DNA of 59,835 bases, taken from contig JAFUIS010000012.1 in NCBI GenBank assembly GCA_017468365.1, positions 1 through 59,835 of the forward strand. Reading direction: 5' to 3'. The DNA is from Oscillospiraceae bacterium (lineage in GTDB: Bacteria; Bacillota; Clostridia; Oscillospirales; Ruminococcaceae). The notes below the pieces were generated by a model. It saw nothing but the letters and a program-made list of their open reading frames with translations, was not told the DNA's origin and ran no database searches. The translations under genes were made by a program, and so were the position numbers. Positions 49,726 through 59,835 of this stretch are shown here, in pieces (positions within the stretch are counted from its first letter, which is position 1; each line of letters starts with the position of its first letter).

Positions 49726-50214
49726 TTATTTTTTTCTTCCGGATTCAATTAATTCTTTTTCGAATTCAACAGGATGCTTTAAATAATAATCCTGATGTTC
49801 TTCTTCGGCTGTGTAGAAAGAATTAAAAGGCTCGAGCGCGATAAAAACCTTTTTTCCGGAAGATTTTTCAAGTTCAGTTATCGCTTTTTCAGCGATTTCT
49901 TTTTCTGTTATATCATTATAATAAATTGCAAGGGTATAAGAATATCCCCTGTCAATAAACTGTCCGCCTTCGTCAAAAGGATCAACCCCGCCGAGGAAGA
50001 TTTCAAAAAGTTCAGCAAAAGAGATTTTTTCAGAATCGTAATCAATTTTTATAGTTTCCCTGTGGCCGGTTTTCTGGCTTTTCACTTCTTTATAAGTCGG
50101 ATTTATCTCATCACCGCCGCAATAGCCGCTGGTTACTTCAAAAACACCGTCAGTTTCCTTAAATGTCGGTGTTATACACCAAAAACAACCGCCCGCAAAA
50201 TATGCCGTTTTCAT
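49726..50214 (-). CDS. msrA: Peptide-methionine (S)-S-oxide reductase MsrA
   Basis: A protein of 162 residues. The catalytic GGCFWC begins at residue 9; SGYCGGDEINPTYKEVKSQKTGHRETIKIDYD follows, then EPFNSFYTAEEEHQDYYLKHP. It repairs oxidised methionine. The start overlaps the stop of the next gene upstream by four bases, so the two are coupled. Confidence 0.96.
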   Translation of the reverse strand: MKTAYFAGGCFWCITPTFKETDGVFEVTSGYCGGDEINPTYKEVKSQKTGHRETIKIDYDSEKISFAELFEIFLGGVDPFDEGGQFIDRGYSYTLAIYYNDITEKEIAEKAITELEKSSGKKVFIALEPFNSFYTAEEEHQDYYLKHPVEFEKELIESGRKK

Positions 50215-50592: not shown

Positions 50593-50677
50593 TGGTGGGA
50601 GCGGGTGGGTTCGAACCACCGTAGTCACTGACAACAGATTTACAGTCTGCCCCCTTTGGCCGCTTGGGTACACTCCC
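50593..50677 (-). tRNA. tRNA-Tyr (anticodon GTA)
   Basis: A class II tRNA of 85 bases with a long variable arm and encoded CCA; the anticodon loop is CTGTAAA. The acceptor pair is GGGAGTG with CGCTCCC. It cannot read TAG in its standard form. Confidence 0.96.
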
Positions 50678-50702
50678 ATATAAATATTAAATTTTGTCTT
50701 GG

Positions 50703-50778
50703 TGGAGCTGGTGGACGGATTCGAACCCCCGACCTGCTGATTACAAATCAGCGGCACTACCAACTGTGCTACACCAGC
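50703..50778 (-). tRNA. tRNA-Thr (anticodon TGT)
   Basis: A 76-base tRNA with encoded CCA. The acceptor GCTGGTG pairs with CACCAGC, and the anticodon loop is TTTGTAA. It is transcribed before tRNA-Tyr from the promoter at 50860-50888. Confidence 0.96.
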
Positions 50779-50859
50779 CCATTTAATGCGAGTTGAACAG
50801 ATGATTTTTTGGGTTCTGTTCGGTTGATTATCAAGACTGATGTCTTAACAACAGTTGAG

Positions 50860-50888
50860 ATTATACCACCATTAATTAGTGTTGTCAA
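50860..50888 (-). promoter_or_regulatory. Strong tRNA-operon promoter at the chromosome/prophage border
   Basis: On the minus strand a perfect TTGACA (50883-50888) and TATAAT (50860-50865) are spaced by 17 bases. It drives tRNA-Thr and tRNA-Tyr. Phage coding sequence ends only 32 bases upstream, so the border lies close to 50889-50919. Nothing else is seen in 50779-50859. Confidence 0.85.
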
Positions 50889-50919
50889 TAGTTTTTTTAA
50901 ACTTTTTTTAAAAATATTT

Positions 50920-51126
50920 TTATTGGGTTTCGGTTGTGGGTTCGGCAGTTACAGGTTCTTCTTTTCTGCTGAAATAATAGGTTAAGATAATTAAGAAGGT
51001 GGTTAAGAAGTCCTCTCCCCCAATTACACCCTAAAATGCCAGAAAAGCAAAGCAGACAGTGAATACAAGGGTTACAAGGCTTTTAACATCAATTAAGTTA
51101 GCCAGTTTTTTAACAACTTTATTCAT
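50920..51126 (-). CDS. Holin-like phage membrane protein (one in-frame TAG)
   Basis: A small protein of 68 residues. KKLANLIDVKSLVTLVFTVC FAF.. forms one hydrophobic segment and FLTTFLIILTYYF a second, followed by a charged tail (SRKEEPVTAEPTTETQ). Codon 32 is TAG at 51031-51033; as Gln it joins FLAF and GVIGGEDFLTTF, as in other small phage proteins from lysis regions. The stop is TAA. GGAGGTTTTCTA precedes the ATG. It shares the operon of the gene at 51141. A holin role is inferred from size and position. Confidence 0.78.
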
Positions 51127-51140
51127 TAGAAAACCTCCAA

Positions 51141-51590
51141 TTATTCTTTACTTGTTTCTTTAATTAAAGCAAGAGCATTTTCATATTCTTCATTTTCATA
51201 ACTGATTTTTCTATTTAACCACTCATTAAGGTTAGCCAATTCTTTGTCATAATCCTCTTGGATTTTTGCCAAGTTATTGTCGTGGTTTTCAATATCTTTA
51301 TTGGCTTTTTCAAGTCTCCACTCAATAGTTTTCTTCTGTAATTCTCTTTCAATGTATTCTCTCTCAACACCAGAAGGATTGAGCCAATAGTAGTAAAATC
51401 TGTCTCTGCGTAATTTGCCTCTATCAAGAAGACCAGCATTAACAGCAGAAGTAAAAGTAGCAGGACTATAAGAAGTTCCAAGTTGATTATTCCACTCATT
51501 AGCACTCATCTTAATGTCAATTTTACACTCATTTTCAATTACATAGTCTTTCATTTGGTTGTAGAGGTAATAAGTATTGTAAGTAGCCAT
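51141..51590 (-). CDS. Phage protein of unknown function, no TAG codons
   Basis: A protein of 149 residues. The N-terminal 85 residues look like a small helical DNA- or protein-binding domain (MKDYVIENECKIDIKMSANEWNNQLGTSYSPATFTSAVNAGLLDRGKLRRDRFYYYWL at residues about 13-70, winged-helix-like), and the C-terminal 65 are a charged coiled coil. I do not recognise a family. Unlike its neighbours, it holds no TAG and has its own promoter, so it could be made before or without suppression. The stop is TAA. Confidence 0.75.
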   Translation of the reverse strand: MATYNTYYLYNQMKDYVIENECKIDIKMSANEWNNQLGTSYSPATFTSAVNAGLLDRGKLRRDRFYYYWLNPSGVEREYIERELQKKTIEWRLEKANKDIENHDNNLAKIQEDYDKELANLNEWLNRKISYENEEYENALALIKETSKE

Positions 51591-51642
51591 AGTTAAAATC
51601 CTTTCTTTTAAAAAATGTTATTTCTTTTTTTATTGTATATAT

Positions 51643-51671
51643 ATTATAACATTTATTTTTAATAAAAACAA
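51643..51671 (-). promoter_or_regulatory. Predicted phage promoter for the 51141 gene
   Basis: On the minus strand TTGTTT (51666-51671) and TATAAT (51643-51648) are spaced by 17 bases, in an AT-rich gap between the XhlA-like gene and the 51141 gene. Confidence 0.65.
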
Positions 51672-51683
51672 ATAAAGGGCCTA

Positions 51684-51932
51684 TTAGTCAGACCCTTTAC
51701 TCTTACCTTCTAATACAGTTATTCTTATCTCGTGGTCTTCTAACTCATTATCATAGCCCTCGTGTTTTTTCTCATTCTTTTCTTGAATAGCAATTAACTG
51801 GGCCATTTTGGTAGTTAGTGTAGTAATAGAAGTGTTTAGTTTAAGCATAGGAGTTACAATGGCAGTTACAAGACCTATAATGGTCACTATAACTCCTACC
51901 ACTATCCACTCTAAACTTACTATATCAGCCAT
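51684..51932 (-). CDS. XhlA-like phage membrane protein
   Basis: A protein of 82 residues with one N-terminal transmembrane helix (WIVVGVIVTIIGLVTAIVTPML) followed by a coiled coil (TTLTTKMAQLIAIQEKNEKKHEGYDNELEDHEIRITVLEGK). This plan is common to hemolysin XhlA/BhlA-type lysis proteins; family helix order can vary, so the assignment rests on size, layout and position next to the tail genes. It has no TAG. The stop is TAA. Confidence 0.72.
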   Translation of the reverse strand: MADIVSLEWIVVGVIVTIIGLVTAIVTPMLKLNTSITTLTTKMAQLIAIQEKNEKKHEGYDNELEDHEIRITVLEGKSKGSD

Positions 51933-51944
51933 TCTTTTACCTCC

Positions 51945-53549
51945 TTACAGTTGAATGTCAGTTCCGTTTTCTCTTTTGTAAATAGTTCCAGAAGAGGAAA
52001 TGTAAAGGCCATTTAACCTACCTTCATCTCCAAGCCATATACCACTATCAATTTGGCAGAGCATAGTCCCATTATCAATTTTAGTATCCATACCTACATC
52101 AAAAATTGAGGCCTCTGCTACCTTGCCTATTGCCACTCCATCTCCTCTGTTAAAGAAGTCAATCATAACTGGCTCTGTTGCTAAGGTGATGATTTTTGTG
52201 GTGGTTTCCCCTACTGTGTCAGTTAAAGTAAGTCTTATATAGTAAGATTTACTCTGTGAGTAGGTTCCATCTAATTGGTATGTGGTCCCAGAAACAGCAG
52301 AAGGTATCATATCAACCCACTGGCCTCCATACTCCTACACATCAATTTTATTAACTACTATTGAGTTATTTCCATCAAGTGTAGTGTAGGTCCAAGCCAC
52401 AGTAGTCTTACAAATACTACCTCTGCTATCCATTACTCCATTTTCCAAATACCTGTCAGCAGTAAAAGTAGTAATCTGGGGAGGTTGATATGCTAAAAAG
52501 GTTTTAGAAATTGAGGTTGATTTAGTATAACCTCTGCTGTCTGTTATTGTCAGTGTAAAGGTTATTGTTCCACTATTGGGTATATATCCAGTAGTGAAAG
52601 AGCCACTTGTGGAGCCATCGGTAATATTAACTGACTGGCTGGCATAAGTGATTTTAGTGTTGGCTATTGAGGCACCATTTGAGGGACTGACCCCACTAAA
52701 TGATACCTACAAGTCAGTGTGATTTTGAATATACAAGCCATCAATAGCAGTCTCATTTATATCAACTGTAAGAGTTCCAGCACTTATGCCATCATCTGTG
52801 GTGGTTACTGTGATATATGTTGAGTTGGTTCCTACTAATGTATAGTTATATCCAGAGGTATGGTAACTGTCCCAAGTTTCCGCAATTACTATAACCTGTG
52901 CTGTTGTTGAATTGGTTATATAATTATTGAGTTCTGTTGGAATTGTTAGGGTATATGTTCCCTCATCTTTAAAAATTAGTAGGTTCTTGCTTTGATAACC
53001 AGCATATTCTAATCTTACATATACACCAGCCATATCATCATAATCTTGGCCGGGGTTTGTAATTGTTACTGTAATCTGTCCTCCAACTGTTCCATTAGTA
53101 GCAGTTATAGTGGCTGGGACAAAGTATGTAGTATCACCTGTATCTCCTCCTCCACCACCACCACTGGAACCACCAGCATCAGTTACAGTTACAGTTACCG
53201 AGACTGAGCCAGATTTTGGTATGTAGTTGGTTGAACTCGTAACAGTCCAAGTTGCTGTGACTGTATAAGTTCCATTCTCACTTACCTAACCAGTTCCAGA
53301 GGTAGATTGGGTTAATCCAGCAGTAGAAGTATTAGGGTTGAGTGAGGTTACTGTTTTTGAGGCCAGTGTAGTCCCATCAACCTTAACTGCCAATGTTCCT
53401 GAGCCACCACTAAAACCAGAGGCTTTCCAAGTGTTTTTTAATGTTGCTGTGGCATAGATTAAATCCCCACTAACACTGGCTTCTACTTCAAGGGAGAAGG
53501 GATTGTTAGATGAGGCCCCAGAAGTTAAATATTTTGAGTTGCTCGCCAT
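51945..53549 (-). CDS. Ig-like phage tail protein (DUF859-like), three in-frame TAGs
   Basis: A continuous frame of 534 residues once TAG is read. It starts MASNSKYLTSGASSNNPFSL behind GGGAGGAATAATTAA and ends at TAA. It consists of three or four beta-rich repeats with many Thr, Ser, Val and a Gly-rich linker (SSGGGGGGDTGD), and a C-terminus with FFNRGDGVAIGKVAEA, typical of DUF859-type siphovirus tail proteins. TAG lies at 53286, 52707 and 52335. I read every codon between 52335 and 52710 and found no other stop. It is probably a tail fibre or decoration protein on the virion surface. Confidence 0.87.
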
Positions 53550-53553
53550 TTAA

Positions 53554-55800
53554 TTATTCCTCCCATATCAGTGATAGGTTTCCATTAGTTCGTGGGACAA
53601 ACTTAAAATTGCCTATCTGTAATTTACTTATAATCTTTCCATTAGTAATGTTGAACTCCTCATTAGAGATATAAGCAACCTCAATATTATTGTCTGTAAA
53701 ACTTAACTTGCTATTGGTTAAGTTGGTTTTAAATGAAGAGTTCTATGCCCCAATAATTAATCCTTCCTCTCCATTGAAGGTAAGGTATTGGGCCACTTCT
53801 CTTTTATATTTATCTAACTAATCATCAGCATACTATTCCATCTTACTCTCACTGGTCTAAATATCAGTATATACACTATCACTGAAATTATTGAAGTCAG
53901 TTTGATTTACAAGGTCTTGGGTTATTTGAGAAACAGCCTAAGTAGTAAGTTTATTAAAACTTAAACTCTATCCAGCAATAAAACTACCTACAATAGTTCC
54001 ATCTTGTGTAATTGCTGTTGTATAGGGGCCATTGTAGCCATAAGGAGAGTGAGCCAGTCCATTTTGGTTAAATCTCCATACATTTTGAGCCAGACTTATA
54101 CTCTGGCTATCCATTATTAAAATCTCATCTGGGTATTTACTCGTATAAGAAAGATTTACTGTTATTGTGTCTCCTTCTATTGGAGTTCCAGCATAAGTAA
54201 TTCCAAGACTTCCAATATCCACTACATTTCCTTCATAGGTCCAGCCAGAAGAAGAATAAGTGTAGGTATATATGCCAGCCAATGGGGACATATCAGCAAA
54301 TGTGGCACTATTTACAGCACAAGACCCATCTGTAATGGTAGTGGTGGATTGGCATTTATCTCCTCTGGTGTGGAAGACTACATAGCCACCATCAATTCCT
54401 GTGGTATTCTGTGTTATATTTAAAATTGCCTCATTTAGGTTATTATAGAGTTTATCAATAACTTTACTGGCTGAGGTATAAGAACTACTTAATTTAGCCT
54501 TTTCCTCGCTCTATCCATAACACTCAATAGTATCACTCATACCTCCATTGATATAGAGGGTGTGTTTCATAATATAAACAGGTAAGTGATAATAGAGAGT
54601 GGCTTTGGCATAATTTCCATCTTCTCTAACAATAAAATCAACTTCTATTTTATCTCCATCTTTTGGAGTGTAATTATAAGTTATTCCATAGTTTCCTAAT
54701 GTTGCTAATTGGTCCTCTAAATACCATTGATTAGTATTTATGTTATATACAAACTCTTGAATAGTTGATGTATTAAATGAAGTAAAGAATAAGTCAGTAT
54801 CAACATCAACCATATTTTTACTACTAAATATAGTGTCTATTTGGTCCCCAGCCTAAACAAGGGGGTTTCCTCTCCATCTAATCTCACAGGGCTAAAACTC
54901 TCTACCTCTAACCTTTTGGTAAATACTATCAATAGCCTCTGGGGTCATATAGGGACACTCATAATTAATATCACACCCTACTGTTCCATCACCAGCATAT
55001 ACTGGAAAGTCAGTAATGCCAGAAGTAATAGAAGTGATTGTTTTAGGTGTGTCTGTCTTCTTGCTGTTGGTTTCAAAGTATTGGTAGTCTCTTTCAAGTG
55101 TAAAGTCAAGTTCTTTATACCATTGGCTCTCCTAATCGAGACAACTAACAATATCAATTTCTCCATCTCTATCTACCCTAACAAATCCACCTAACATACC
55201 AGCAACATAACCAAGAGAAGAAAGGTAGGATTGGTCCGTCTAAACTTCAATCATATCCCAGCCCTAACCTTCGGGTAATGTCTTTTCTTTGAGTGTTTGG
55301 CCTGTGTAGGTCATAATTTGTGTTCTGAGGTCGTTGTAAAGGTCTTGGATTTTACACCCATCTGTATTGACTGTTGGAGTGTAGTTTTCATTTAATTTAC
55401 ATAAACAGTCATAAGCAATTAACTCTATTGTGTTTGAACCATCAACCTGTTCTATTTCAGTTATGTAGAAATAGCCAAGAGGACAGGTAATAAATCCCTC
55501 ATCAGTCTTGACATCAACATCAACTTTAATTTTCTTACCAGAGAGATTGCCTACTCTGCTTACTTTTTTATTGTAAGGGTCTTCAATTAGCCCTATTGTA
55601 ATTTTATTAGAGCAAGTTGAACCCATAATTATATTTTCAGTGTTTGAGTTAGCCACTTCTTCCAGCCTAATATACTGGATATTCTCATTATCTAAAATAA
55701 CATTAGGAGAGAGAGTAGTAAATGTTACTCTCAAACCTAATTGTCTTTCACCATCTAAACAGGCCTCATTGACCTATTCATATTGATTTATAAAATACAT
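53554..55800 (-). CDS. Prophage tail protein with fibre-like C-terminus, 13 in-frame TAGs
   Basis: A protein of 748 residues after TAG read-through, from ATG 55798-55800 (GAGGG before it) to TAA 53554. Part one (about 1-330) fits siphovirus tail-hub/endopeptidase proteins: NIIMGSTCSNKITIGL, GWDMIEV, YLSSLGYVAGMLGGFVRVDRDG and CEIRWRGNPLV-TAG-AGDQI, where relatives have Glu or Gln before Pro/Ala-Gly-Asp. The C-terminus (VAYISNEEFNITNGKIISKLQIGNFKFVPRTNGNLSLIW) fits the end of many tail-fibre baseplate proteins. TAGs start at 55774, 55264, 55240, 55132, 54892, 54853, 54511, 53968, 53938, 53857, 53833, 53818 and 53743. Confidence 0.9.
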
Positions 55801-55809
55801 TTACTACCC

Positions 55810-56172
55810 TCATTTCTCTACAAAGTTGGCTTGTAGATTTTCCCATAAATATTTATTCTCACTCTCATTCCACATATATAATGGGGCTGTCCTATCACCT
55901 ACATAGAAGGTTCCAGAACCCATACCACCCATCATAGCATCTGGGAAATCTAATCTAAAAAACTCATTATTCATAGCCTGTAAGAGTTGGCTAATTTCTT
56001 GATTATTGAGGCCAGTCCAACTACAACTAATCTTTCTTTTGGTAGTTACTCTGTCTCTAATCATATCTCCATTAGCGTTTCTTCCAGCAGTATCACTATC
56101 TATATCTTGAATAGCATACTATAAAGTGGCTGGGTCTTTAACAGCCACACCATTTATATACAATACAGCCAT
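55810..56172 (-). CDS. DUF6711-like phage tail protein, one in-frame TAG
   Basis: A protein of 120 residues from ATG 56170-56172 behind AAGGAGGG. MAVLYINGVAVKDPATL-TAG-YAIQDIDSDTAGRNANGDMIRDRV continues into TKRKISCSWTGLNNQEISQLLQAM; relatives from Firmicutes phages share this opening. TAG is codon 18 at 56119. It ends in TGA at 55810-55812, which shows that TGA is still a stop here. It follows the tape measure and is probably a distal-tail component. Confidence 0.87.
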
Positions 56173-56183
56173 TTAGACCCTCC

Positions 56184-59042
56184 TTATAACATTAATGGAC
56201 TTAATCCAGTTTGTCTAACTGTATCATTGTGATATTTAATAACCTTTTTAGCCACTAACTGACTATCAAGGTAAAGGTTAATGTTTTGGTCTTTTCCAGA
56301 AGAGAAGGAAGTCTCTAAAATAGCAGACATTACACCCTACTTGATACCTTCAATAATCTGGTTCTGGTTGGCTACTGCTGACTGTGTGCCTATTCTACCT
56401 ACTAACTCTGGACCAGCCTCATTAGCAATAAATAATTGGCCTCTATCAACAAAACCACCATTGGCTCTAACCATAACTACTCTGTTGCTTACTGCCCCTC
56501 CACTTCCACCTACTCTATTTCCAGAAGAAGAAGTGTTAGTAGTAGTCTGGACTTGGACCTAAACATTATTTCCAGCATTTTCAACATTTCTAATACTATT
56601 CCAAATATTAGAAACAATACCTCCTACTGTGGAGGCTACATTTTGAGCCACACTTATAATACCTGAGATTAAGTTTTTAATTGTATTGACTATTGGGCTG
56701 ATAGTGTTGTAAATATTTCTAATCTTGGAAGTGACTATATTGTAAAGATTATTGGCACTACCAGAAACATTGGAAACACCATCTCTAAATCCATTCTTTA
56801 ATTTATTGACTATGTTATCCCAGATACTTGTTACAGTAGTCTTGATACTTTCTATTGTAGTTCTAATCTTATTCTTTAACTCTTCCCATTTCTTTACAAC
56901 ATCATTAACAAGTTCATCACATTTAGATTTAACTTTTGATTTAATATTGTCCCACTTTGTTGATACTGTATCTTTAATCTTATCAACTATTTTGCCTAAC
57001 TCACTTACAAGTAGGTTCCAAGCCCTCTTAATTAACTCACAGCCATCATCAAAGTTTTTCCAGAACTTCTCTACATCAATTCCAAGACTTTCAAGGGTAA
57101 TTGATAGTGTATCTTCAAAGTTCTTAACAAAATCTTTAATTAAACCTCTTACAAAACTTACTGAGTTATCCCAGACTTTTCTAAACAGTTTTCCTACATT
57201 GTTGAAATAGGTCTCCTGTCTTTTAGCAGTGTCTTTGCCGAGTTTTTCCCAAGAGGCCATAATACCCTCCCAGTCCCCTTTAAATACACTTTCTAAAAGG
57301 TCTCCTATGTCTTGAAGGATTACTAAGTCTTGCTCATATAAATCCACAAGAGATAAATGCCACTCTAAAATAGCCTAAAAGATTTCCCTGAGGAAAGTAG
57401 ATAGTCTCTCACAAATATCAAGAACTAACTCAATGGCTGTTCCTATCTTCTCTATGAAAGGACCTAATACACTTCCCACTAATTCAATCCATTTTTGTAT
57501 CTCAACACCATTTTCTTCAAACCAAGAGGCCCAATCATCAAAGGTGTCAATTAAATGTTGTAATGCTCCGTCTATGACTTCTCCACACTTCTTGACAAAA
57601 TCACTAAGGGCTATATCATAGAAATCTTTAAAGGCTGGGACCAGAGCATCAGTAATCTAACTTGTAAGGCCTGTAAAAGCCCTTGTTAGAGAGATTACTT
57701 GGTTGGCTAATTTTCCAATATCAATGTCATTTAAAACATTAATTCCTATATCAATTACAAGAGAACCCCAGCCAGCCACAGTATTTAAAATATTGAGGCC
57801 TATCTATTCAAGGTCTTGTAATGCTTTTTCGCTATCAAAGTTGAACTCTAATTTAGGCAAATCACTGAACCATTTTTCAACTATGGCCTTTGCCTTATCA
57901 AAGAACTCTTGAAGTTTTCCTAATTGTCCTTCCTCTTGGGTTTCGGTAATTTCTGGGATAATGGTAGCATCTCCACCACCAGCACCTCCAATACCACTTC
58001 CTCCCAAGTCTTGATTTTCTGCTTTTGGAGCAAGGGTATTTAACTCATCAAATCCCATTAGAGTTCTTTGTAGTTTTTCTGCCTGTTTTTGGGCTGAACT
58101 GGCACTATCCCCTACATCTTCTAAGCCACTTGATACATCACCAAGTCCAGCAGTAGTAGTAGATGTGGAGGCTTGACTAATGCCTTTTCCACCAAAAACC
58201 TTGGCTATTGAGTTTCCTATCATAATTAAGAAACTCAATATTTGATTAAGTAATTTAACAACAGGGGTTAAGACAGCAATTAATCCACTTCCAATAATAC
58301 TTAATAACTGGCTCCACTGTTCTTTTAAAATCCTTACTTGATTGGCCCAACTTCCACTGGTTCTGGCAAAATCTCCTTGGGCCTAAGATGTAGCCTATAA
58401 AACATAAGCATATCTTAAAGCGACTTTTTCAGCCTATGACATTGAACTGTAAGATTTAGTTATACCTCTTGAAAGAGCAAATGCCTGTAAATTAGCCTCT
58501 GTAAGGACAATACCAAACTTTTTAAGGCTTTCTGTCTCACCAGTAAATACAGACTATAAGGCCGTATTAGCAACATCAACAGAGACATTGTAGAAACTCG
58601 CCATATCACCAGCCAAGCCAGTCAATACAGTAGCCATTTCTAAGCCTTTTTCAAGTGCTATTCCCATTCCATTAGACATAGCCATAAAAGTAGAGGCCAT
58701 CTGTTTATAGGTCAATTCACTAATTCCAAAAGCCATAATAGCAGTTTCCGCAAACTCATTTATCTAATAAGCCATACTTCCAAAGGTTACATTAACTACA
58801 TTTTCAACCTCTTCTAAATTACTGGCTAATTTAACAGCCTCTTTTCCAACTTGTGCTAATCCATAGAGAATAGCAGTAAAACTAATCCCAGCAAATAAGT
58901 TTTTAAAGGAGTTTTTAATTCTGTTAGCAGATTTAGCCACTGACTTTTCCATTGAGCCAAGTTGAGATTTAACCTACTTGATTTCTTTTTCCAAGCCAGC
59001 AGTTTCAGCAGTTATTAATATTTTAAGTTCATCAACTGTCAT
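56184..59042 (-). CDS. Phage tail tape-measure protein, 11 in-frame TAGs
   Basis: A protein of 952 residues when TAG is read. It begins MTVDELKILITAETAGLEKEIK behind GGAAGGGAG and ends TAA at 56184. The N-terminus is coiled coil, the middle has hydrophobic segments (NLFAGISFTAILYGLAQVG; LLSIIGSGLIAVLTPVVKLL), and the C-terminus is the typical ANGGFVDRGQLFIANEAGPELVG with QIIEGIK-TAG-GVMSAI, where relatives have Gln (GI-x-QGV). TAG codons begin at 58974, 58764, 58554, 58434, 58395, 58383, 57804, 57657, 57375, 56559 and 56337. It sets tail length. Its start overlaps the GT stop (ATGA). Confidence 0.94.
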
Positions 59043-59440
59043 TTTTTCACTCCCTTCCTTTTTTTGTTATGATAATTAGCAAAATCTATCATCTGTTCTT
59101 TATATAACATTATTCGTCTCATATCTTCTTCCTCTTTCTTCTTTTGGTCTTTGAAGAGGTCAGGGAAAAGTTCATATATCTGGGGTATTGGTTTTCCATC
59201 AACTTTAAGCAATACAAAACTGCTAATCATATCAGCCATATTGTAGTTGTAAATTAACTACTCTTTATGCTTTTCTTTATCCAACTTATCATAGTTAATT
59301 ATGACAGTCTCAACTTCTCCAAAAGTCATATTCCAAAAGTCAAAGATATTGATACCACATTGAAGGGCAACTGGGAGCGTGTAATTAAACAATTCTTCAA
59401 GAGTAGAGAACTGTGGCTATTCCTACTCTCTCACATTTGG
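59039..59440 (-). CDS. Tail-assembly chaperone T extension, reached by -1 frameshift, three TAGs
   Basis: A frame of 133 codons in -1 phase to G that begins just after the slippery site. It has no ribosome binding site or ATG of its own near its beginning. The product (CGINIFDFWNMTFGEVETVIINYDKLDKEKHKE; DMISSFVLLKVDGKPIPQIYELFPDLFKDQ) has the look of the T part of GT chaperones. TAG lies at 59423, 59417 and 59258. It ends in TGA at 59039-59041, overlapping the tape-measure ATG. Together with G it would give a 247-residue GT fusion. Confidence 0.85.
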
Positions 59441-59781
59441 GGGTTTTCAATTTCCTCTTCTTTGTTATCTTTAAAAAATCCACTTACTTTAAATACTTCC
59501 ATAAGGACAGGAACTAACTCCATTAAAGTATTTCCATCATCAACAAACTTATCATATAACTCATAGGTTTTATCCATAGTCATATTGTGATGGAAGTGCT
59601 GTAAAGAGCAGTGAAGGATTGTAATAAGGACATCTAACTGGGGGATTTCACCAGTCTGTCCTATTTTAGTGAATACATTGAGAGGGTTAGTGCCGAGTTT
59701 CTTTTCTAACTCTACACAGTATTTACAGTCTAATCTAAGTCTGTAATCTTCCCCATTAACAGTAAAAATTGAATATAACAT
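59431..59781 (-). CDS. Tail-assembly chaperone G
   Basis: A protein of 116 residues between the tail tube and the tape measure, the usual place of the G/GT chaperones that coat the tape measure during tail assembly. It begins MLYSIFTVNGEDYRLRLDCK behind AGGAGGAAAAATAATA, has a helical middle (DVLITILHCSLQHFHHNMTMDKTYELYDKF) and ends NPQM then TGA. It contains no TAG. The slippery site AAACCCC lies nine to fifteen bases before the TGA. Confidence 0.85.
   Translation of the reverse strand: MLYSIFTVNGEDYRLRLDCKYCVELEKKLGTNPLNVFTKIGQTGEIPQLDVLITILHCSLQHFHHNMTMDKTYELYDKFVDDGNTLMELVPVLMEVFKVSGFFKDNKEEEIENPQM
59440..59446 (-). other. Programmed -1 ribosomal frameshift site A AAC CCC
   Basis: The heptamer AAACCCC obeys X-XXY-YYZ in the zero frame of G (GA[A AAC CCC] CAA ATG TGA). 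A -1 slip enters the T frame exactly (AAA CCC CCA AAT GTG). The T frame is closed upstream by a TGA, so this is the only natural entry. Confidence 0.82.
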
Positions 59782-59799
59782 TATTATTTTTCCTCCTAT

Positions 59800-59835
59800 T
59801 TAATAAAAATGTAATTCAGAACGATCCTCCGCCTA
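59800..59835 (-). CDS. End of a probable major tail protein (runs off the window)
   Basis: The last 11 codons of a frame read TAG then AEDRSELHFY and TAA at 59800-59802. Its position before G and the acidic, aromatic ending suit a major tail tube protein. The TAG at 59833-59835 would be one more sense codon. Too little is visible for certainty. Confidence 0.45.

Follow-up and report, generated by a model that had tools for sequence, protein, structure and literature searches.

The window, i.e. the whole stretch of DNA analysed here, is an entire contig of 59 835 bp, and the phage segment within it is therefore cut off at the contig end. The phage material is split over two contigs of the same genome, the window contig and a second one, designated C25. 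The host is a standard-code bacterium, probably a member of the Oscillospirales. The features of the phage segment and of its junction with the host DNA are listed in Table 1.

Table 1. Features of the prophage segment and of its host junction in the window
Feature	Position	Strand	Evidence and remarks
tRNA-Tyr(GUA), host	50593..50677	-	Downstream of tRNA-Thr
Hybrid tRNA-Thr(UGU), prophage junction	50703..50778	-	ARAGORN; host 3′ part and phage attP 5′ 39 nt (50740-50778)
Phage-borne leader and predicted promoter ahead of the tRNA-Thr/tRNA-Tyr pair	50779..50919	-	TTGACA 50888-50883, 17-bp spacer, TATAAT 50865-50860
Holin-like small protein, 68 aa	50920..51126	-	phrog_13256, 1.7e-15, function unknown; 1 TAG (codon 32)
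149-aa phage ORF	51141..51590	-	No family match; TAG-free
82-aa phage ORF	51684..51932	-	phrog_1009, weak (0.0004); TAG-free
534-aa tail protein	51945..53549	-	phrog_372 tail protein, 7.8e-26; 3 TAG (88, 281, 405)
748-aa tail protein	53554..55800	-	phrog_5555 tail protein, 2.9e-18; 13 TAG
120-aa DUF6711/phrog_1194 protein	55810..56172	-	1.4e-41, PF20458; 1 TAG (18)
952-aa tape measure protein	56184..59042	-	phrog_1535, 1.3e-93; 11 TAG
Tail assembly chaperone, T part	59039..59434	-	phrog_2066, 2.6e-22; 3 TAG (4, 6, 59)
Tail assembly chaperone G	59431..59781	-	phrog_183, 4.3e-20, PF19591; TAG-free; ends in TGA
Candidate -1 slippery heptamer A AAC CCC	59440..59446	-	Near the end of the G gene; read by eye

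The tail genes match families found in Clostridia prophages. An earlier note, made from the letters of this DNA, had spoken of tail and lysis genes; the tail genes are upheld, but the lysis assignment is a weak one, no family match naming a lysis protein. The product of the ORF at 50920-51126 looks like a small membrane protein. The T part of the chaperone is probably reached from the G gene by a -1 frameshift; its label rests on its position in the -1 frame behind G, phrog_2066 having no stated function. In a megablast search, positions 50780-59835 matched none of the phage records. The middle of the prophage was not found in 15 contigs of the genome (nine whole and the first 20 kb of six) or in a whole-genome search with one terminase family. 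The same genome also holds a broken terminase-family match, at C24:120005-121681, with three in-frame TAA codons.

In-frame TAG codons and their probable meaning

Reading TAG as sense opens six minus-strand ORFs between positions 50920 and 59434, with 32 in-frame TAG codons; three of the nine phage ORFs of the window are TAG-free (51141-51590, 51684-51932 and 59431-59781). The frames opened by TAG that were proposed earlier are thus real, but re-calling yields six of them with 32 TAG codons, rather than seven with 33. Coverage by ORFs of at least 120 codons between stops, over positions 50901-59835, rises from 0.56 under the standard code to 0.93 with TAG open, the values with TGA or TAA open being 0.59 and 0.90, respectively. 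Opening TAG also brings the longest frame to 960 codons, compared with 271 codons in each of the other three cases.

Because a TAG-open ORF ends by definition at the first TAA or TGA, the lack of any other stop is informative only where homology fixes the length of the gene. Homology-supported stretches contain 28 of the 32 TAG codons of the window, and no TAA or TGA; for these 28 the claim that internal TAA and TGA are absent therefore stands, while elsewhere it is true by the definition of the ORF. All 11 TAG codons of the tape measure gene are homology-supported, the PHROG matches spanning residues 2-937 of 952. Homologues of the tail protein at 53554-55800 are present in 19 other genomes of the class, the matched stretch being without an in-frame stop. 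As a background, the two remaining frames of this strand contain 156 TAG, 259 TAA and 190 TGA stops, and the probability that 28 of 28 stops are TAG is approximately 3e-17, or approximately 6e-17 if weighted by the sense codons that are one change away. TGA terminates the phage genes at 55810, 59039 and 59431, as the earlier note had claimed. Each of the six TAG-free phage ORFs in the window and on C25, as called with table 11, has TAA or TGA, and not TAG, as its terminator; in the nine ORFs of the two contigs that bear TAG, the same follows by construction.

In the host part of the window (positions 1-50560), two of 42 ORFs end in TAG, and the host possesses RF1 (523 bits, against a family cut-off of 423). 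It may soundly be presumed that TAG works as a stop during lysogeny.

In the prophage, TAG is most likely a sense codon for Gln. The residues found in homologues at 11 TAG columns were scored, leaving out four loci recoded at TGA (see below). Gln was the best residue, with a summed score of 5.9 versus -0.5 for the next; as a control, 46 of 47 sense codons were called correctly. At codon 203 of the tape measure gene, the 160 homologues have Gln in 124 cases and Glu in 31; at its TAG columns 93 and 163, which are among the better aligned, they have mostly Lys. When ten residues were tried at TAG against the PHROG families, Gln scored highest for the two best families, and Asp, Glu or Lys outscored it for some of the weaker ones. 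Tyr, Trp and Leu were rejected, with column scores of -19.9, -22.2 and -15.2, respectively.

The integration site and the integrase end

The other end of the prophage, to which an extension of the contig had been suggested, was located on C25, where a TAG-free tyrosine integrase gene adjoins the native leader of tRNA-Thr(UGU) and the 39 bp displaced from the 5′ end of that gene. The phage-derived 39 nt of the hybrid tRNA gene differ from the displaced native copy (C25:3010-3048) at four bases, two of which form a compensating change in the D stem, from GCTC/GAGC to GCAC/GTGC. An identical 13-bp core lies at the junction (50740-50752). All 13 congener loci compared, and C25 as well, have the native leader and tRNA start, which the window lacks; in the congeners, the flanking host genes sit on either side of an intact tRNA-Thr gene, i.e. 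an empty site. An integrase gene and both att ends belong to a single chromosomal site that is empty in relatives, as expected of an integrated temperate phage. As judged from these sequences, the TAG-recoded segment of the window is an integrated prophage, joined to the host DNA by site-specific integration. The earlier proposal of a prophage segment with TAG as sense inside a standard-code bacterium is thus borne out by the homology-backed TAG codons, both junctions and the host RF1.

The tRNA-Thr/tRNA-Tyr pair is present in 13 of 14 congeners, and the bin, with 44 tRNA genes in all, has no tRNA-Tyr gene other than the tRNA-Tyr(GUA) gene of this pair. The leader that now precedes the pair differs from the sequence at all 13 congener loci and resembles the region upstream of the host tRNA-Lys gene. 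According to the Islander survey (PMC4383910), a minority of islands (159 of 3919) have a displaced fragment of the 5′ tRNA part; as in these, the attP of the present prophage carries a copy of that part, by which the tRNA is regenerated, with crossover near the anticodon, but here the predicted upstream promoter is replaced too. Mycobacteriophages with tRNA-dependent lysogeny, in which the host tRNA is described as broken and complemented by a phage tRNA (PMC10865867), likewise link lysogeny with a host tRNA gene, but in the present case integration reconstitutes a hybrid tRNA.

The phage part of C25 has five TAG codons in three of six ORFs (5/11 Gln-type codons). One of the TAG-bearing genes on the integrase side encodes a repressor-family homologue, and since three genes on that side carry TAG, a split between late and early genes is not a clean one. 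For these counts, a ribbon-helix-helix ORF was started at the ATG at C25:919, a GTG extension that holds a further TAG being omitted, and a plus-strand ORF was taken from the ATG at 1272 rather than the TTG at 1263. Of the Gln-type codons, 32 of 127 are TAG in the genes of the window and none of 19 in the integrase gene and its two neighbours (Fisher p 0.014); the avoidance is not significant when the integrase is counted by itself (0/11, p 0.068). Integrase homologues were found in six of 296 other genomes of the family, with just 27-31 % identity, and no close relatives were confirmed in IMG/VR by a peptide-pattern search from a single sequence.

TGA-recoded relatives

The relatives sampled comprised 80 of at least 567 confirmed in IMG/VR and 80 of 353 in genome_contigs. 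In-frame TAG was observed in the aligned stretch of none of these 160 homologous loci, and TGA, among the loci listed, in four. Close relatives of the tape measure protein were not confirmed by peptide-pattern searches from single sequences in either collection. The four IMG/VR contigs recoded at TGA (L156, L158, L159 and L170) were the top four matches for chaperones G and T among 225 loci compared, with 50-61 % identity for chaperone G; the next match was below 40 %. In a tape measure tree they are sister to the TAG prophage (support 0.66). No similarity was found between these contigs and the DUF6711 gene or the later tail genes of the TAG prophage. Their in-frame TGA, in place of TAG, is read here as Trp. 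Two of the four records contain a TGA-free integrase gene, in which none of 12 Trp-type codons is TGA, versus 54 of 186 (p 0.039). No tRNA genes were found in these records, which are fragments. The four are known as contig records, and integration has been mapped for the present prophage only.

Single in-frame stops were seen elsewhere, in L218 and L219 (TAA) and in G392, G707 and G1236 (TGA). When 229 loci were scanned generically for frames that TAG or TGA would open, GC-rich antisense frames swamped the result, which was discarded.

Proposed mechanism, alternatives and significance

The data argue strongly for a temperate, siphovirus-like prophage in a standard-code host, the structural genes of which use TAG as Gln and would be unlocked by decoding after induction. 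In the lysogen, RF1 would terminate translation at each TAG, so that no full tail proteins would be made even if their genes were transcribed, while the TAG-free integrase would be translated normally. After induction, a phage-coded decoder would compete with RF1 and unlock the structural genes. We infer the decoder and the timing of decoding; the former would most likely be a Gln-accepting tRNA with anticodon CUA whose gene lies in the missing prophage middle.

Recoding might be real and yet proceed with no phage suppressor tRNA, either through misreading of UAG by a host tRNA-Gln or through a phage protein that lowers RF1 activity. None of the 44 tRNA genes found in the bin has a CTA anticodon, although this proves little because the prophage middle is missing from the stretches searched. 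Matching tRNAs were reported for only 13 % of 285 TAG-recoded genomes of a Dutch cohort (PMC9610469), and a review gives 35 % and 40 % for TGA and TAG, respectively (PMC10136315). The 13 TAG codons in a single gene would, on the other hand, presumably demand highly efficient misreading, and this explanation is considered rather unlikely. Slightly less unlikely is that TAG spread neutrally once a suppressor was present, the TAG-free genes being simply short or poor in Gln and the arrangement no lock at all. The TAG-free ORFs other than the integrase gene are indeed short (82-149 codons), the result for the integrase alone falls short of significance, and TAG does occur in three genes on its side; against this stand the avoidance in the integrase and its two neighbours and the similar sparing of the integrase by the TGA-recoding relatives, both in small numbers.

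The remaining alternatives are far less probable. A phage adapted to a different host that reads TAG as Gln, with the present lysogen a dead end, is hard to reconcile with a phage tRNA-Thr half identical to its native counterpart at 35 of 39 positions and a predicted phage promoter that resembles the host's tRNA-Lys promoter, and is very improbable. That a recoded free phage was joined to a host contig by chimeric assembly or erroneous binning might be suggested by the extension of the phage segment to the contig end and by the missing middle; however, the junction falls within a tRNA gene, and the second contig has the displaced tRNA fragment, the integrase and a matching host flank. It is because the two junctions match that this possibility, hardly credible in any case, was rejected. 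Least probable of all, at the edge of what need be considered, is a cryptic prophage decaying through nonsense mutations. The same genome does contain the broken terminase-family match, but the homology-backed stretches hold TAG alone, 28 times, and frames of 534, 748 and 952 codons are intact, without a frameshift. Decay was rejected on this stop spectrum, mixed stops and frameshifts not having been encountered, and the argument made against random decay in the earlier note holds.

Borges et al. (2022, Nat Microbiol 7:918) reportedly described TAG-recoded (code 15) gut phages, temperate ones included. As far as that account goes, the present prophage resembles those phages in TAG being Gln and the host having the standard code, and in that recoded stops occur chiefly in structural genes, with a proposed lytic/lysogenic switch; it differs in that both ends and the tRNA target are mapped, and its decoder is unseen. 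Two papers that cite this work (PMC10607447, PMC10136315) already speak of recoded temperate gut phages, and the case is, on those accounts, less unstudied than had been claimed. For crAss-like phages, proteomics has demonstrated that TAG is read as Gln (Peters et al. 2022, PMC9523058); the reassignment proposed here, in structural proteins, is the same. The crAss-like phages are described as non-lysogenic (PMC10136315), whereas the present phage has an integrase and tail genes of the Clostridia prophage type. A recoded temperate phage is thus of a kind already known; for the present one, both insertion ends are mapped. Standard-code gene callers fragment such prophages, which can then look degraded, and recoded lysogens may therefore be undercounted.

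A broader hypothesis, put forward tentatively as possible rather than probable, is that one temperate tail-module lineage locks its structural genes by TAG or by TGA, sparing the integrase and leaving the other codon as a stop, and that the prophage, with its predicted promoter, also takes over the sole tRNA-Tyr gene detected in the genome. With both ends of this recoded prophage mapped and a host that uses the standard code, the idea of a translational lock becomes testable: if it is true, the lysogen would make integrase, and the tail proteins would be truncated until a decoder is present. The relatives recoded at TGA form a natural counterpart for comparison, in which a second codon perhaps serves the same purpose. 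If the lock by either codon is the correct reading, selection would act on the lock between lysogeny and lysis and not on a particular codon.

TAG codons in the phage genes and in their relatives

With TAG read as a sense codon, re-called ORFs gave six full-length frames at 50920–59434 on the minus strand. A codon count of the nine phage ORFs of the window (2900 codons) found 32 TAG codons, confined to six of them. The earlier note had reported 33 in-frame TAGs in seven frames; the TAG-opened frames were borne out, and the counts are amended to 32 and six. ORFs called with TAG open exclude TAA and TGA by construction, and the stop test was limited to gene lengths set by homology. Of the 32 TAGs, 28 fall where family match spans fix the gene length, and all 28 stops there are TAG. 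Since the remaining two frames of the same strand hold 605 stops, of which 156 are TAG, this has a probability of about 3e–17 (6e–17 when weighted by one-step neighbours of sense codons). The TAG-free phage ORFs of C5 (the window) and C25 (the contig bearing the other prophage end), called with table 11, terminate in TAA or TGA in six of six cases and in TAG in none.

Codons 4 and 6 of the chaperone T part are TAG, and the T frame's first TAG, read from the sequence, lies six codons past the probable shift site. Without TAG decoding, the G–T fusion would therefore terminate almost at once.

Features of the prophage in the window and on C25
Feature	Location	Strand	Basis or remark
Tail chaperone G	59431-59781	minus	PHROG
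Candidate slippery heptamer A AAC CCC, G–T junction	59440-59446	minus	read from sequence
Tail chaperone T part	59039-59434	minus	label from position
Tape measure	56184-59042	minus	PHROG, 1.3e–93
DUF6711 protein	55810-56172	minus	Pfam
Two tail proteins	window phage segment	minus	PHROGs
Tyrosine integrase	C25:1922-2866	minus	PHROG integrase, 1.2e–44
Five small ORFs	within C25:1-3009		alongside integrase; three of them are the TAG-carrying genes below
TAG-carrying gene	C25	minus	weak replication-initiation match
TAG-carrying gene	C25	minus	no function assigned
TAG-carrying gene	C25	minus	repressor-family homologue; ribbon-helix-helix-like by sequence reading
Truncated second tRNA-Thr, first 39 nt	C25:3010-3048		displaced native copy

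No in-frame TAG was observed in the matched tape measure stretches of 27 other genomes (394 searched, order) or 20 other genomes (398 searched, phylum), in the aligned tape measure stretches of 160 public loci, or in the matched stretches of the 748-aa tail protein in 19 other genomes (391 searched, class). In-frame TGA was found in four of the 160 loci, all from IMG/VR (L156, L158, L159 and L170), at 3 to 16 per matched stretch. Among 225 loci compared, these four are the top matches to chaperone G (50–61 % identity; next <40 %) and, by a small margin, to chaperone T, and in the tape measure tree they are sister to the window's protein (support 0.66, long branches). They have no similarity to the window's DUF6711 protein or later tail genes at 1e–4, so that kinship with the TGA-recoded contigs, as judged from these comparisons, is limited to the chaperone/tape measure module. 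In code 4 calls TAG serves as terminator of three ORFs in L170, three in L156 and five in L158. Integrases occur in two of the four records, and neither contains TGA (0 of 12 Trp-type codons versus 54 of 186 in L156 and L170 genes; P=0.039); TGA is present in the small genes beside them.

Glutamine as the probable residue at TAG

Column frequencies at the 11 tape measure TAG codons, taken from 156 homologous loci (118 effective) with the four TGA-recoded loci excluded, favour Gln (5.9), followed by Asn (–0.5) and Lys (–1.3). As a control, the same test returned the correct residue for 46 of the 47 sense codons having at least four usable columns. The strongest single column is codon 203, where 124 of the 160 loci have Q and 31 have E; in a smaller 36-locus set it is again Q (15) and E (5), with the other TAG columns scattered. 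In columns 93 and 163, K predominates; it is the columns taken together, and not every single one, that point to Gln. When ten residues were tried at TAG in PHROG scans, Q was best for the two best families (316, others ≤312; 181.9, others ≤176.1); D, E or K outscores it for some weaker families. In two crAss-like phages, proteomics supports TAG as Gln (PMC9523058).

Distribution of TAG and the standard-code host

TAG accounts for 32 of 127 Gln-type codons in the window phage genes. It accounts for none of 19 in the integrase and its two plus-strand neighbours (P=0.014 versus the window genes; integrase by itself 0 of 11, P=0.068), and for 5 of 11 in the three minus-strand C25 genes. The latter indicate that recoding extends beyond structural genes, with the integrase and its two neighbours spared.

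The host encodes RF1 (523 bits, cut-off 423), and TAG terminates 2 of 42 host ORFs of at least 150 aa (window 1–50560). Recoded structural genes, a spared integrase, an RF1-bearing host and integration are shown at the level of sequence. In the lysogen, RF1 would be expected to cut the tail proteins short at TAG, and a decoder acting after induction would let them be completed. No TAG decoder was found, and the stretches of the genome bin that were read did not contain the middle of the prophage, with its head genes and most of its early genes. The one terminase-family match genome-wide, C24:120005–121681, is broken by three in-frame TAA codons; it is apparently a second, decaying prophage remnant, and a useful contrast to the TAG-only recoded prophage.

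PMC10607447 and PMC10136315, citing Borges et al. 2022, state that code switching serves temperate gut phages in the lysis–lysogeny choice. PMC9610469 counts 285 representative phage genomes as TAG-recoded, and the collection it describes has vOTUs that include prophage contigs. No TAG-recoded prophage with mapped att sites appeared in the titles and abstract openings searched, most subscription journals being outside the search. TAG-recoded temperate gut phages are a known kind, of which this prophage is a new example.

Integration in tRNA-Thr and the presumed promoter of tRNA-Tyr

The source genome comprises 33 contigs (97.8 % complete), of which C5 is the window in full. The tRNA-Thr(UGU)/tRNA-Tyr pair is arranged as in the window in 13 of 14 congeners; the 14th (73 % complete) has just a weak match, at another place. 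The leader CGTCGCTGAGAT precedes the tRNA in all 13 and is absent from the window; the source genome's copy sits on C25, adjoining the truncated second tRNA-Thr. Beyond it lies a gene whose sequence reads as calcineurin/metallophosphatase-like; in 11 of 13 congeners tblastn places it 0.15–1.2 kb away from the intact tRNA, and the window-side flanking gene (49726–50214) is near the tRNA in 10 of 13. The other prophage end, which the earlier note had proposed to reach by extending the contig, was thus located on C25, with integrase, displaced tRNA-Thr 5′ part and native leader.

The C5 tRNA-Thr is of hybrid origin. Four substitutions set its 5′ 39 nt apart from the native copy, two of which compensate each other in the D-stem, and the two copies share an identical core of 13 bp. 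Together with the displaced copy, this indicates that the phage inserted near the tRNA-Thr anticodon, bringing a new 5′ half and a predicted consensus promoter. A displaced 5′ tRNA fragment is unusual but not new; Islander lists one in 159 of 3919 islands (PMC4383910).

The contig start C25:45–115 holds short repeats whose unit resembles CTAGATGGCTCAGCCATA; they are a possible cause of the assembly gap. Elsewhere, at C3:143969–144038, ARAGORN assigns the anticodon AAA (Phe) to a low-scoring tRNA-like gene that has short repeated motifs on its flanks; such an anticodon is unusual for bacteria.

The predicted phage-supplied promoter matches the consensus (TTGACA, 17 bp, TATAAT) and is closer to the host tRNA-Lys promoter (alignment score 59) than to that of the native tRNA-Thr (21). 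Downstream of tRNA-Thr, and in the lysogen behind this promoter (window 50593–50919), lies tRNA-Tyr. The 44 tRNA genes that score over the cut-off include no other tRNA-Tyr, so transcription of a presumably essential tRNA presumably starts at the phage promoter in the lysogen. Excision of the prophage would give tRNA-Tyr its native promoter back.
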